A stretch of 23,054 nucleotides of DNA. It comes from a virus. Below the pieces are notes generated by a model. The model made no database searches. It was not told where the DNA came from and worked only from the letters and a program-made list of their open reading frames with translations. The stretch lies in the IMG/VR virus record IMGVR_UViG_3300009419_000103, positions 1 through 23,054 of that record; one strand, given 5' to 3'. Made by a program: the position numbers and the translations under genes. Below, piece after piece: positions 13,654 through 19,953 of this stretch (position 1 is its first letter; each line of letters begins with the position of its first letter).

Positions 13654-14655
13654 TTAACCTTTCATACATGTGGCCTGGGCAAGTGACCGCCAGTTAGCAC
13701 TAATCTTAACCAAGTCTGCAATCTTGAGACACATACGCAAGGACACTTCACGCAATTTATTGCAATTAGCGTCAATGAATGCCATGATTTCATCAGTTTG
13801 TTCCTGAGAAAAATCATACTCAGCAAACAAACCACCATCAGCATCACGGTGAACTTGCTTGATACGCAACATTTTGTCACGCTCAGTATCAACTGTCAGG
13901 TCCAGAAAGTGACAACGACTTTGCAATGCATCCAAGTGAGGTTGCATCTTGCCGGCTTTCTTAGCATCAAACGATTTGTTTGTAATGAAGATGATAGAGC
14001 CGTTAAAGTTGAAACTGTTAGGGATACCTTCTTCACGCAAAAGACGACTATCCTTGTTCCAAGAGATACGGCGAGTCTTGCCTGAATCCAAAGCACCTTT
14101 CAGCACGTTGATTGCGTCCTGATCTTCCCAGATATCACAGTCATCAAAAACGAGAACGTTTTTAGCATCAGAAAATTTGTACAACTTAGCGAACAGGCCG
14201 ATGCCTGACATAGCACCTTTGACAATTTCAAAGCGAGGCTTCTTTCCTGTAACATTGTCAAACAACGATGCCTTTTCCATTTGCAGTGACACACCGTGAC
14301 TCTTACCGATACCTGCAGGACCTGTCACAATCATAGCACGAATGTCACCTTTGATACATGCCTTAGACATTTCATCAAGCACACCGAAACGAGTAGCAAT
14401 GCGATCCATTGCTTCTTCATCAGTTTCTTTGGGTGTCTCAACCTTTACTGCATCACGACCTGACACAAATTCAATCATTGATTGATTGTCAACATTCACA
14501 CGAACTTGATCGGGACGACCGGGGAACTGACCTTCATTTTTTACGGTCACAAATCCACCCTTAGTACCAAGCTGATAGCCTTTTACCAATGTGAAAACTT
14601 TACCTTTGATAGTGTCGTTGCGATAAGAACCTGACAAAATGCGAACTGTAGACAT
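13654..14655 (-). CDS. AAA+ family ATPase
   Basis: The protein is 333 aa from ATG 14655, with SD AGGAG 5 nt upstream. An N-terminal beta-rich region of about 75 residues precedes the AAA+ core. Walker A is GPAGIGKS (112-119), Walker B VLVFDD (167-172), sensor 1 IIFITN (221-226) and a candidate arginine finger SRC (246-248). ALDSGKTRRISWN and the Q-S-R-C-H-F-L-D-L segment match a phage ATPase type common in T4-like aquatic phages, distinct from the clamp-loader gp44. It likely uses ATP hydrolysis to remodel a protein or DNA complex; the substrate is unknown. It heads an operon with a small beta protein, a membrane protein and a Gly-rich protein, driven by the promoter-operator at 14680-14718. 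Confidence 0.85.
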   Translation of the reverse strand: MSTVRILSGSYRNDTIKGKVFTLVKGYQLGTKGGFVTVKNEGQFPGRPDQVRVNVDNQSMIEFVSGRDAVKVETPKETDEEAMDRIATRFGVLDEMSKACIKGDIRAMIVTGPAGIGKSHGVSLQMEKASLFDNVTGKKPRFEIVKGAMSGIGLFAKLYKFSDAKNVLVFDDCDIWEDQDAINVLKGALDSGKTRRISWNKDSRLLREEGIPNSFNFNGSIIFITNKSFDAKKAGKMQPHLDALQSRCHFLDLTVDTERDKMLRIKQVHRDADGGLFAEYDFSQEQTDEIMAFIDANCNKLREVSLRMCLKIADLVKISANWRSLAQATCMKG

Positions 14656-14679
14656 AACTTCTCCTGTGTGTTAATGATT

Positions 14680-14693
14680 CAATACAAGTATTG
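14680..14693. promoter_or_regulatory. Palindromic operator-like site, copy 1
   Basis: Inverted repeat CAATACAAGTATTG (6-bp arms, 2-nt centre) covers the end of the -10 and the transcription start. It is identical to the site at 14951-14964, as expected for a repressor binding site. Confidence 0.6.
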
Positions 14694-14718
14694 TAGCACA
14701 ATACCCATTTATTGTCAA
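14690..14718 (-). promoter_or_regulatory. Sigma70-type promoter of the ATPase operon
   Basis: The minus strand reads TTGACA, a 17-nt spacer, then TACAAT (6/6 and 5/6 to consensus). The start is expected near 14683, with a 28-nt leader containing AGGAG before ATG 14655. The -35 overlaps the stop codon of the upstream gene. Confidence 0.8.
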
Positions 14719-14927
14719 ATTTTGGCTATCAAATTAGCATGGATTTCGTTCATTTCCGACTGCTCTACATAGAAATCGGAACGAGGATCGTAGTACTGAC
14801 CCTCTTTGTTGTCATAATACAACACTCGACCGCTGAAGTTGAAAGGACCTTCTAGACCCTTGCGTGGACCATACTTCTCACGCATATCATCCATTTGATA
14901 CTTATCAGCAACAACTTTGTAACCCAT
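14715..14927 (-). CDS. Small phage protein under regulated promoter
   Basis: The protein is 70 aa. ATG 14927 has AGGAG 6 nt upstream and is preferred over the in-frame start at 14933. The sequence (YKVVADKYQMDDMREKYGPR, then RVLYYDNKEGQYYDPRSDFY) shows a helix, a Gly-rich turn and aromatic beta segments. There is no recognisable family, membrane helix or zinc site. It has its own promoter-operator (14951-14989) that is nearly identical to that of the following ATPase operon, so the two transcription units should respond together. It could be the regulator itself, but no helix-turn-helix is evident. Confidence 0.65.
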   Translation of the reverse strand: MGYKVVADKYQMDDMREKYGPRKGLEGPFNFSGRVLYYDNKEGQYYDPRSDFYVEQSEMNEIHANLIAKI

Positions 14928-14950
14928 AAACAACTCCTAGTTCTCAGTGT

Positions 14951-14964
14951 CAATACAAGTATTG
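14951..14964. promoter_or_regulatory. Palindromic operator-like site, copy 2
   Basis: Same inverted repeat, CAATACAAGTATTG, in the same position relative to the -10 as copy 1. Confidence 0.6.
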
Positions 14965-14989
14965 TATCACAAAGACCATTTATTGTCAA
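14961..14989 (-). promoter_or_regulatory. Sigma70-type promoter, near-duplicate of 14690-14718
   Basis: The minus strand reads TTGACA, a 17-nt spacer, then TACAAT. The -35 and its upstream flank (CCAAAATTTGACAATAAATG) match copy 1 exactly, while the second half of the spacer differs. The expected start is near 14954, a 27-nt leader. Confidence 0.8.
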
Positions 14990-15001
14990 ATTTTGGTATT
15001 G

Positions 15002-15799
15002 TTACACAATTGTAAACTTATTAGTTAATGACAAGTGTTCATTACCGTCCCGATAACTTTTCTTGTATCTTGCATTAATAACTAAATTACCCTTAGTAAC
15101 TACATTATCCAATAGAGATAATAATGGATTATTAGAATCTAAATTAAGATTTACAAGATTATTATGTGTGTCACTAAACCAGTATTCTTTAGATTTAGAA
15201 TGTCTTTTATTAACTGATAATTTTTTTACAAATTTTAACTGCTTTGTTTCAGCAATGACATGCGGGTCATAAGATTTAATTTCTTTATTATAATCAAATG
15301 ACATTTTTTCAAATTCAACGTCATATTCATAAAACTCAGGTAAACGATATGCTAATGGTAGCATAGACTCTTTAAAAGTTTGACCATTACTGTGAATAAA
15401 TGAGGTTAAATCTTGCCTAAATACAGACAGATTAATATTCTTAAGTTTCCATACCATAATCTTCTTACTATAATAATCACGGATAATATTAGCTTTCTCA
15501 ATATCCTCGTGAGTTGTTAGTCGGAATAATTCACTGTCTAACAGTTTAGTAATTGTAGGCGAGAGTAAATTATAAGCTTGTTCCCGTTCTTTACGTAGGC
15601 GTGACCAGCATACACTCAATGCAAGTAGGTCTTTGCTTATTTCATAAACTTCATATTTACTAACATTATTATTTTTTTCTTGACCAAATGAAGACCAATC
15701 GATTCCTGTTGATGATCCTGATCCTGTTATTGAAATTGTATTCATACTCGGGGATCCTAAATGGAGTGTGTTGAGTGAGTTGCTATATGTATATGACAT
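15002..15799 (-). CDS. Conserved-type phage protein, function unknown
   Basis: The protein is 265 aa from ATG 15799, with AGGA 5 nt upstream. The N-terminal 35 residues are low-complexity Ser/Gly/Thr (SITGSGSSTG). A helical middle follows (ISKDLLALSVCWSRLRKERE, LLSPTITKLLDSELF, IIRDYYSKKIMVWKL), then a charged, Asn-rich C-terminal half. Codon use is distinctly AT-rich. No catalytic or metal-binding signature is visible. The stop lies about 13 nt before the -35 of the next promoter, so it ends the recombination transcription unit. Function unknown. Confidence 0.6.
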   Translation of the reverse strand: MSYTYSNSLNTLHLGSPSMNTISITGSGSSTGIDWSSFGQEKNNNVSKYEVYEISKDLLALSVCWSRLRKEREQAYNLLSPTITKLLDSELFRLTTHEDIEKANIIRDYYSKKIMVWKLKNINLSVFRQDLTSFIHSNGQTFKESMLPLAYRLPEFYEYDVEFEKMSFDYNKEIKSYDPHVIAETKQLKFVKKLSVNKRHSKSKEYWFSDTHNNLVNLNLDSNNPLLSLLDNVVTKGNLVINARYKKSYRDGNEHLSLTNKFTIV

Positions 15800-15801
15800 A
15801 A

Positions 15802-16260
15802 TTATCCTATTGTGATATCTTCCATTCCACTAGTGCGTAGTCGCACGATATGTCCCATCTGCCATTGTTTAGCTTCGAGACCCTTCATAATGCCAAGCCA
15901 TCTATTTCGCAATAGTGCTACTTCGTTAATCAATACTTCCATATCAATTACTTCATCTTCGCCTTCTGCATACTTTTCAGCATCACGACTTGTCAATGCT
16001 CTATTGTACGCTTCTAAATATTTTTGAAAATGTTTTCGGCGAATTTTCCGTAATTGAATATTGAGATAGTTCAATACGGCTTCTATCTCTTGTAGTTGAT
16101 TGAAACGATGTTCAGTGACACCAGGGATAGCGGCAATGTTCTTTTCAACATTGCCGTATATCTTGACTTCGTGTTTAGCCGAAATTAATTCGGCTTCATA
16201 GTGAGTTATGAAATCGGGTATCACACCAAGATTTTGGGTGATGCGTGTATACCAATTCAT
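15802..16260 (-). CDS. Conserved T4-type helical protein, UvsY-like possibility
   Basis: The protein is 152 aa from ATG 16260, directly after the preceding stop (TAAATG). It is predominantly helical and charged: HYEAELISAKHEVKIYGNVE, HRFNQLQEIEAVLNYLNIQL, RKIRRKHFQKYLEAYNRAL, then VALLRNRWLGIMKGLEAKQW. I recognise it as a conserved protein of aquatic T4-type phages. Its size, helical make-up, a R-x-x-x-Y-x-x-x-Y segment and the nearby uvsX gene resemble the recombination mediator UvsY (T4 137 aa), but the sequence does not clearly match UvsY and I do not assign the symbol. Confidence 0.65.
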   Translation of the reverse strand: MNWYTRITQNLGVIPDFITHYEAELISAKHEVKIYGNVEKNIAAIPGVTEHRFNQLQEIEAVLNYLNIQLRKIRRKHFQKYLEAYNRALTSRDAEKYAEGEDEVIDMEVLINEVALLRNRWLGIMKGLEAKQWQMGHIVRLRTSGMEDITIG

Positions 16261-16512
16261 TTAATCCCAGTCTTCGTCTTGGTCATCTTCTTCATAATCT
16301 TCATACGATTCCTCAGTATCTTGATGTGCCAAATTCTCTTTAAGAGCAGTTAGCATTTCTTTATCGCCCTTAAAGGCATCTTTGATATCTTCAGCTTCGT
16401 AATTGTTATCAATCAGTAGATTGACTAGTGAATCGGCCGCGTCAGTGCGGTCATTGAAATCAATATGAGAACGCAATGCGTCCCATACTTCTGCAACAAA
16501 ATCTAAACTCAT
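16261..16512 (-). CDS. Small acidic conserved phage protein
   Basis: The protein is 83 aa. ATG 16512 overlaps the endonuclease stop as ATGA. A helical N-terminal domain (FVAEVWDALRSHIDFNDRTD, SLVNLLIDNNYEAEDIKDAF) is followed by a tail of nearly pure Asp/Glu/Tyr (from about residue 66 to the end). Such tails mimic DNA or bind basic surfaces of replication proteins. I believe it is conserved in T4-type aquatic phages near recombination genes. Before the endonuclease arrived it may have followed uvsX directly. Function unknown. Confidence 0.7.
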   Translation of the reverse strand: MSLDFVAEVWDALRSHIDFNDRTDAADSLVNLLIDNNYEAEDIKDAFKGDKEMLTALKENLAHQDTEESYEDYEEDDQDEDWD

Positions 16513-17267
16513 ACTGTATCATCCTCTCCTATGTTAGATACAGTACTTATCGTTGATTTAGTTTTTTCTACAAACCATCCTTGACACGAGCCTCGTGTAG
16601 GTATTTTTTTATTTCTCAAAATTTTCTCCATTGTAGGTATACTTAAATTGTTCAGATTACAAAAATTATAAAAGCCTTCAACCATATATTCAATATCATT
16701 TGGCGAAACAAACCTATAAGTTTTTATGTTATTCTTGTTTCCTACCATCCTCGCTGAATGTTTTTGTTTATTTTCGGTAGTATGGCGTTTACCGTAAAAT
16801 GGATTTGACTTTCCGGGTCTTGCTATTTTCTTTTTTGTTGCTTCGCTGTGAGGTTTACGACCAACTCTCTTACATGTATCTACATAACTATTGACTCGCT
16901 TAGTAGTATGTTCTAAAGTTTGTTTTTTTCCTTTATGATTGGGCGGTCTATTATCTGAACAAATGTTCGTTAAAATTCCACCTTCATCAATATTTTTGCG
17001 CCCGTATTGTTTAATATAATCTGCCTCAGTAGAATACGCATCATCTTCATTAATAATATTGTCAACTAAAATTGAAACGGGAATTTCATAGCCTTGCTCT
17101 TTTAAAGATTGAATCTTAAAAAATTTATGACGATTATCAGTTGTTTCTAATGTTTCTTTGAAGTGATCCAAATGTCTCTGATTTTTAATCTTTCCTTTTC
17201 CTATATAAAAAGGAAGGTTAGTTCTAATATCTATCATTGCGTATATGTAATACATAACAGTCTCCAT
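16509..17267 (-). CDS. GIY-YIG homing endonuclease (Seg-like) beside uvsX
   Basis: The protein is 252 aa from ATG 17267. The GIY-YIG core reads YYIYAMIDIRT (6-16) and FYIGKGK (20-26), with R31 and catalytic-position E81 in STEADYIKQYG. NUMOD3-like DNA-binding repeats follow (SEATKKKIARPGKSNPFYGK, HTTENKQKHSARM), and the C-terminal part resembles a helix-turn-helix repeat (NNLSIPTMEKILRNKK). It lies directly after uvsX, the same position relative to uvsX as the GIY-YIG gene segA in T4. A perfect late box five bases before the ATG would give a leaderless late message. Its stop overlaps the following gene as ATGA. It is probably intact and active. Confidence 0.92.
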   Translation of the reverse strand: METVMYYIYAMIDIRTNLPFYIGKGKIKNQRHLDHFKETLETTDNRHKFFKIQSLKEQGYEIPVSILVDNIINEDDAYSTEADYIKQYGRKNIDEGGILTNICSDNRPPNHKGKKQTLEHTTKRVNSYVDTCKRVGRKPHSEATKKKIARPGKSNPFYGKRHTTENKQKHSARMVGNKNNIKTYRFVSPNDIEYMVEGFYNFCNLNNLSIPTMEKILRNKKIPTRGSCQGWFVEKTKSTISTVSNIGEDDTV

Positions 17268-19924: not shown

Positions 19925-19953
19925 AGTATAGCAGTACTTTACTCTCCTGTCAA
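19925..19953 (-). promoter_or_regulatory. Strong sigma70-type promoter of gp32
   Basis: The minus strand reads TTGACA, a 17-nt spacer, then TATACT (6/6 and 5/6). The start is expected near 19918, giving a leader of about 72 nt before ATG 19846. Confidence 0.8.

Follow-up and report, generated by a model that had tools for sequence, protein, structure and literature searches.

The window analysed here, a virus record of 23,054 bases and probably a fragment of a genome, holds two adjacent genes on the minus strand that are preceded by nearly the same promoter, each with the same palindrome over its predicted start point. The question raised by this locus is whether the two promoters form a private pair, recently duplicated or strongly selected and controlled by a common repressor, as a sequence-only reading of the window had proposed, or belong to a wider arrangement.

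Two near-identical promoters

Both promoters are predicted by a promoter scan as sigma70-type promoters matching at 11 of 12 positions. P1, in the minus-strand repeat copy at 14950..14996, reads CCAAAATTTGACA-ATAAATGGTCTTTGTGA-TACAAT-ACTTGTATTGA, with TTGACA at 14984-14989 and TACAAT at 14961-14966 (hexamers spanning 14989..14961). P2, in the minus-strand copy at 14679..14725, reads CCAAAATTTGACA-ATAAATGGGTATTGTGC-TACAAT-ACTTGTATTGA, with TTGACA at 14713-14718 and TACAAT at 14690-14695 (hexamers spanning 14718..14690). A repeat search of the window recovers them as a 47-nt direct repeat (14679-14725 and 14950-14996) with 91% identity and a spacing of 271. The description in the sequence-only reading stands: the -35, the 17-nt spacer, TACAAT and the palindrome over the start point are shared, the differences are limited to the second half of the spacer and the leader, and P1 and P2, strong sigma70-type promoters with a near-identical core, stand ahead of a 70-aa gene and an AAA+ ATPase gene, respectively. 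Its interpretation fares less well: the recent duplication is disfavoured and the common repressor is weakened by the comparisons described below.

The palindrome, CAATAC-TT-GTATTG, consists of two 6-bp arms flanking 2 bp and lies at 14951..14964 in P1 and 14680..14693 in P2. These are the only exact copies of CAATACAAGTATTG in the window. With up to three mismatches there are 16 matches, which include both exact sites counted again on the opposite strand, compared with a shuffle mean of 4.97; 16 was reached in none of 100 shuffles. If transcription starts 7 nt below the -10, the palindrome spans the -10 to about +4 and therefore overlaps the predicted start point. An RNA hairpin in the leader was considered and rejected: the predicted start lies inside the palindrome, and the leaders at both boundaries in the window fold no better than shuffled sequences (z of -0.34 and -1.15).

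A further promoter in the window, TTGACA-17-TATACT at 19925-19953 on the minus strand, lies upstream of a gp32-like gene. It has a similar counterpart in the relative L007 and does not belong to the TTGACAATAAA family described below.

The genes and their source

The 70-aa gene (14715..14927, minus strand) matches phrog_13298, which has no assigned function. The ATPase-type protein encoded downstream of P2 (13654..14655, minus strand) matches phrog_1250 and also gives a weak clamp-loader match; its match in Acinetobacter phage Acj9 carries the annotation nrdC.10. On the other side, a 265-aa protein with no assigned function (15002..15799, minus strand) stops 12 nt short of the P1 -35, and beyond it lies a UvsY-like recombination mediator (15802..16260, minus strand; phrog_231, E = 4.6e-14). 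Proteins resembling UvsW, UvsX, UvsY and gp32 are all encoded in the window, and judged from these relatives the source is a large T4-like phage. A DNA search with the window gave no match to a cultured close relative. The ATPase is less than 60% identical to every one of 1235 matching phage records, and the nearest UvsX proteins are those of Sinorhizobium phage Phosso, Pectobacterium phage CBB, Xanthomonas phage XbC2 and Cronobacter phage GAP32 (68-69%).

Two other features of the window may be recorded here. An ORF at 16509-17267, between UvsX and the UvsY region, has GIY-YIG and NUMOD3 matches and is homing-endonuclease-like. Between 3936 and 6536 there are four occurrences of a 36-nt repeat (the reference and three copies at 64-75%); they coincide with, or lie close to, the 3' end of a small ORF, which suggests paralogous small genes.

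A promoter family at the edges of single-gene cassettes

Scanned with a tolerance of one mismatch, all 12 related contigs (88-250 kb each) contain the pattern TTGACAWTAAA-N12-TAYAAT; there are 2-18 places per contig and 85 in total, and none for the reversed pattern. By eye, a promoter of this family stands ahead of the ATPase gene in all 77 relatives with a complete ATPase start; by rule, it does so in 76 of 78 loci, the window included. These counts derive from 80 ATPase loci, of which L058, L061 and L070, where the start is truncated, were excluded from the promoter and array counts. The rule failed at L010 and L075, and an upstream ORF is absent at L005 and L051, leaving 74 of 78 loci for the stop-codon count given below. 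A scan for strong sigma70 promoters in 45 kb of Cronobacter phage GAP32 found none of this family. As judged from this distribution, P1 and P2 are members of a dispersed promoter family that marks cassette edges, rather than a private pair under one repressor.

In the relatives the stretch between the UvsY/265-aa gene and the ATPase is occupied by a row of small genes, each following its own family promoter. UvsY is a fixed backbone gene to the left of the array, the 265-aa gene is its left-hand neighbour in the window and the ATPase gene is its right-hand anchor. The 232 promoter-ORF units of the 77 relatives and the window fall into 35 ORF families arranged in 37 orders; the ORF caller assigned one ORF per promoter with a simple score, and a few families (F29 and F30, for example) may be spurious. 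Each recovered stretch holds from zero to seven cassettes (78 loci), zero being a minimum figure because some contigs end within the stretch. The order itself varies (F1-F3 versus F3-F1 between loci; F10-F5 in L003 versus F5-F10 in L174), and several cassettes also occur in rows for which the locus showed no neighbouring ATPase. The array in the window is minimal, with the 70-aa gene as the single cassette. In L007 the same 265-aa gene and P1 cassette are followed by a second cassette (78 aa) ahead of the ATPase. Because the loci are related and some are near-duplicates, their counts lack independence and make the p values given below optimistic.

We consider it probable that P1 and P2 represent a dispersed sigma70 promoter of early type, which bounds single-gene cassettes, and that the palindrome is one of its exchangeable start regions. 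A cassette would comprise the promoter, a leader with the ribosome-binding site and one small ORF, whose stop codon is often the TGA within the following TTGACA. As all boundaries start with the same stretch, homologous recombination between promoter copies could lose, gain or exchange cassettes, and an exchanged gene would still arrive with its own strong promoter. Such an array would account, at the DNA level, for the trading of small early genes by a large phage without loss of their expression.

The junction at TTGACA and the mosaic window

The gene families abutting the ATPase promoter number 18 and are mutually unrelated. When one representative of each was aligned, anchored at TTGACA, the mean identity was 0.24-0.34 per 5-nt bin up to -6 (chance level), 0.43 over the last five bases before TTGACA and 1.00 from its first T. 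The neighbours have been exchanged up to the edge of the promoter, and from these neighbours we infer recombination between promoter copies. Selection that preserves the promoter, independently of changes in the adjoining genes, would also leave a sharp junction.

The stop codons bear on this point. In the window, the 70-aa gene ends with the TGA at 14715-14717, within the TTGACA of P2, a point absent from the sequence-only reading. Among family promoters, the preceding ORF ends in this way at 62 of 129, compared with 19 of 112 generic TTGACA-17-TATAATAC phage promoters among the matches listed and 86 of 850 TTGACA sequences of any kind, the count requiring an ATG-initiated ORF of 40 codons or more for which that TGA is the stop (Fisher p = 3e-7, family versus generic). 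Counted as distinct junctions between a cassette and the following promoter, 45 of 109 have the stop within TTGACA, representing 13 of 34 families; at a further 39 of the 109 the stop is at +1 to +6, and at 23 a distance of over 12 nt separates it from the next -35. For the ATPase promoter itself the preceding gene stops within TTGACA in 27 of the 74 loci. The fusion is also seen in the generic phage promoters just mentioned, against the lower frequency for TTGACA of any kind in other loci, and joining a stop codon to a -35 may be common in phages.

The segments of the window also differ in their closest relative among the five loci compared. The UvsX-UvsY stretch is closest to L014 (96.5%). 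The 265-aa gene is 95.0% identical to that of L007 and 72.9% to that of L003, and the 70-aa gene is 96.7% and 84.2% identical, respectively, whereas the ATPase gene is closest to L003 (92.8%, compared with 85.0% for L007). The closest relative therefore changes once within the 63 bp that hold P2.

These observations can be set against a simpler account in which the repeats are just strong promoters under purifying selection and cassettes change by illegitimate recombination with the promoter uninvolved. Selection on the promoter would by itself yield the sharp edge in similarity, and the exchange events are read from the neighbours rather than directly observed. The account leaves the excess of stop codons within TTGACA over the generic promoters, spread across 13 families, and the change of closest relative at P2 unexplained, and we regard it as unlikely. 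More tentatively, and with somewhat less than even confidence, we propose that lytic T4-like phages possess a scar-free system of cassettes bounded by promoters. TTGACA would provide a universal joint at its start, where TGA closes the incoming gene and the remainder starts the next, and UvsX and UvsY, encoded beside the array, would reorder, drop and trade single early genes in the manner of integron cassettes, each gene with a strong promoter. A promoter whose -35 doubles as a stop codon offers a concrete, testable unit.

Two exchangeable start regions

Downstream of the -10, most family promoters carry one of two start regions: class I, ACWTGTAT[T/A]GA, or class II, A.A.TCTT[A/T] (AGARTCTTA...). 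The 134 deduplicated family promoters divide into 40 of class I, 58 of class II and 36 others. On this classification the palindrome corresponds to class I, a start region made up of the discriminator and first transcribed bases and exchangeable with class II. The ATPase promoters comprise 35 of class I, 39 of class II and three others (n = 77), and those of the 70-aa family comprise four, 39 and three (n = 46). Among the 45 loci that have both promoters, class I, and with it the palindrome, is present at both in only three: the window, L025 and L027. Class II is present at both genes in L003, which is closest to the window in the ATPase, and in L014, which is closest in UvsX-UvsY.

This distribution bears directly on the proposed duplication, a recent copying of P1 to P2 or the reverse in this phage with nothing wider. 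The high identity and close spacing of the 47-nt repeat are as such an event would leave them, and L025 and L027 likewise have the palindrome at both promoters. The promoter family is genome-wide, however, as is evident from its 85 places in 12 contigs. L007 keeps P1 and its gene at 95-97% identity yet has a different, class II ATPase promoter, and L025 and L027 have the P2 of the window and nearly its leader but with an extra cassette between the two promoters. A local tandem duplication is accordingly very improbable.

The second proposal, a shared operator, supposes that CAATAC-NN-GTATTG, lying over the start point, is the binding site of a dimeric repressor, coded by the phage or host, through which the 70-aa gene and the ATPase are jointly controlled. 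A perfect 6+6 dyad does lie across the start point at both P1 and P2. AATACTTGTATTG has 14 exact copies in the 12 related contigs, and 13 of these overlap a family promoter at its -10. There are 18 sites with a single mismatch to AATACTTGTATTG: the six at family promoters found by the motif scan all change the centre, while the other 12 comprise ten arm and two centre changes, one of the latter (G003:37628) also being at a family promoter. GTAT is found in 40 of 45 promoters of the window's group with AC at -6/-5 and [TA]GA at +3..+5. As far as these alignments go, the arms are kept while the centre changes in this group, a pattern not expected of a start region alone. The dyad is completed by TACAAT, and this hexamer is also more frequent in class I promoters (16 of 40) than in others (15 of 82; p = 0.014, in related sequences).

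The comparison of close relatives points the other way. L003 and L004 (96% ATPase protein identity) and L014 keep both promoters and have the palindrome at neither, which weakens the operator reading, and the same gene can carry either class. Loss of the palindrome from close relatives with both promoters is the very outcome that the sequence-only reading had named as refuting it. Conservation in class I extends past the dyad: G at +4 and A at +5, the latter beyond the dyad, are present in 40 of 40 promoters, and the centre base at -3 is T in 39 of 40. In all 24 class I promoters with TATAAT the outer pair of the dyad is broken, with no compensating change. Start regions in the same register are used without the full dyad by phage T5 and, for the most part, by Salmonella phage Munch. 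No DNA-binding regulator was recognised among the proteins scanned in the window, which is probably a genome fragment. Joint control through a shared operator therefore appears doubtful.

The preferred reading of the palindrome as a start region is consistent with its resemblance to the early promoters of T5, taken from the annotated promoters of AY543070. Scored on a matrix of T5 early start regions, with promoters deduplicated by start region, class I has a median of 3.3 (n = 23), compared with -5.4 for generic phage promoters (n = 121, among the matches listed; p = 1e-9); class II, at -3.4, differs weakly (p = 0.03). The two groups share a start in the same register, a 6-nt discriminator, AT[A/T].ATTGA and a purine-rich leader; T5 contains TATAAT-ATTTGTATAGATTGATAGGA, for which the counterpart in L003 is ACTTGTATAGATTGATTAAAGGAG. 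They differ in the core, the T5 -35 being mostly TTGCT where this family has TTGACA (TTGACAATAAA), and the full palindrome is present in none of the 24 T5 promoters examined, which have at most five of six arm matches. Given this resemblance, a repressor is not needed to account for class I.

For the T5 promoter N25, parts of one report describe a 6-bp discriminator with G at -5 and a strong effect of the initial transcribed sequence on promoter escape (PMC12464699). Position -5 is C in class I, by definition, and mostly G in class II (37 of 58), and the two classes may therefore differ in open-complex life. The likeness to T5 suggests a role for the class I start in open-complex behaviour and promoter escape, and the start region may also affect promoter strength. 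The occurrence of the two classes ahead of the same gene would provide a natural experiment on the tuning of phage promoters by their discriminator and initial transcribed sequence. A general RNA-polymerase optimum of strong phage promoters was also considered and set aside: of 126 TTGACA-17-TATAATAC promoters among the matches listed, six have GTAT at -2..+2 and 14 have ACAT.

Occurrence in viruses and bacteria

In viral contigs, 135 distinct TAYAATACTTGTATTG sites among the matches listed have sufficient flanking sequence; a -35 within one mismatch accompanies 102 of them, 95 with 17-nt spacing, and promoters outside the family are included. The corresponding figure in bacterial genomes is two of 118 among the matches listed, which is chance level. 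The difference also counts in favour of an operator; as the sequence accompanies a -35 in viruses and does so at chance level in bacteria, it is taken to be a phage promoter feature. A host regulatory site was rejected as a candidate: among the matches listed (119 stretches), an exact TTGACA accompanies none of the 118 bacterial sites and a one-mismatch version two, the frequencies at random positions being 0.1% and 3.0%.

Comparison with known systems

The locus resembles what are reportedly the promoter-early stem-loop (PeSL) cassettes of T4-type phages, attributed to Arbiol in 2010 and Comeau in 2014. PeSLs mediate gene shuffling in T4-type phages, according to part of a published account (PMC4503421). 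In common with them, the present system occurs in a T4-like phage, has conserved sigma70-type promoters of presumed early timing between genes where shuffling is heavy, is repeated through the genome at the borders of the shuffled genes and involves small genes of unassigned function exchanged between relatives. The boundaries in the window differ in having no detected stem-loop or terminator; no terminator-like site was found on the minus strand from 14640 to 15050. A further difference is that many -35 hexamers here also provide the upstream gene's stop codon and that there are two exchangeable start regions. By this comparison the locus works like the PeSL shuffling cassettes yet lacks their stem-loop.

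Integron arrays consist of tandem, mostly single-gene, reorderable cassettes, as does the phage array, with the difference that every phage cassette here carries its own promoter. Four promoter motif strings gave no match in the literature searched. No report of promoter-bounded arrays appeared among the titles and abstracts listed, and the portion of PMC11218385 covered makes no mention of promoters. The promoter string could be used to find small phage genes of unassigned function in otherwise unannotated metagenome contigs.

In Salmonella phage Munch, small genes likewise follow one another singly and are separated by sigma70-like promoters; two promoters have TATAATACTTGTATTG, and three stop codons lie within TTGACA. 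Munch differs in that other start regions dominate (ACTTACATCA at nine places, compared with two for ACTTGTATTG), and some of its promoters lie, by eye, within terminator-like hairpins, which places them nearer to PeSLs than the array in the window. As a cultured phage of related design, Munch is a possible bench model. In the Munch locus (L470, 4115-20156), several -35 hexamers are embedded in terminator-like hairpins, as in AAAAAAGGGG-TTGACT-...-CCCCTTTT, and other promoters are flanked by AAGTACT/AGTACTT arms. Vibrio phage D419 (L351, 114 kb) has near-identical repeated promoters, TATAATACTTGTATAGAATGAAGAAACGG, ahead of small genes, with repeated TATAATACTTGTATAG starts within the 39.6 kb examined.
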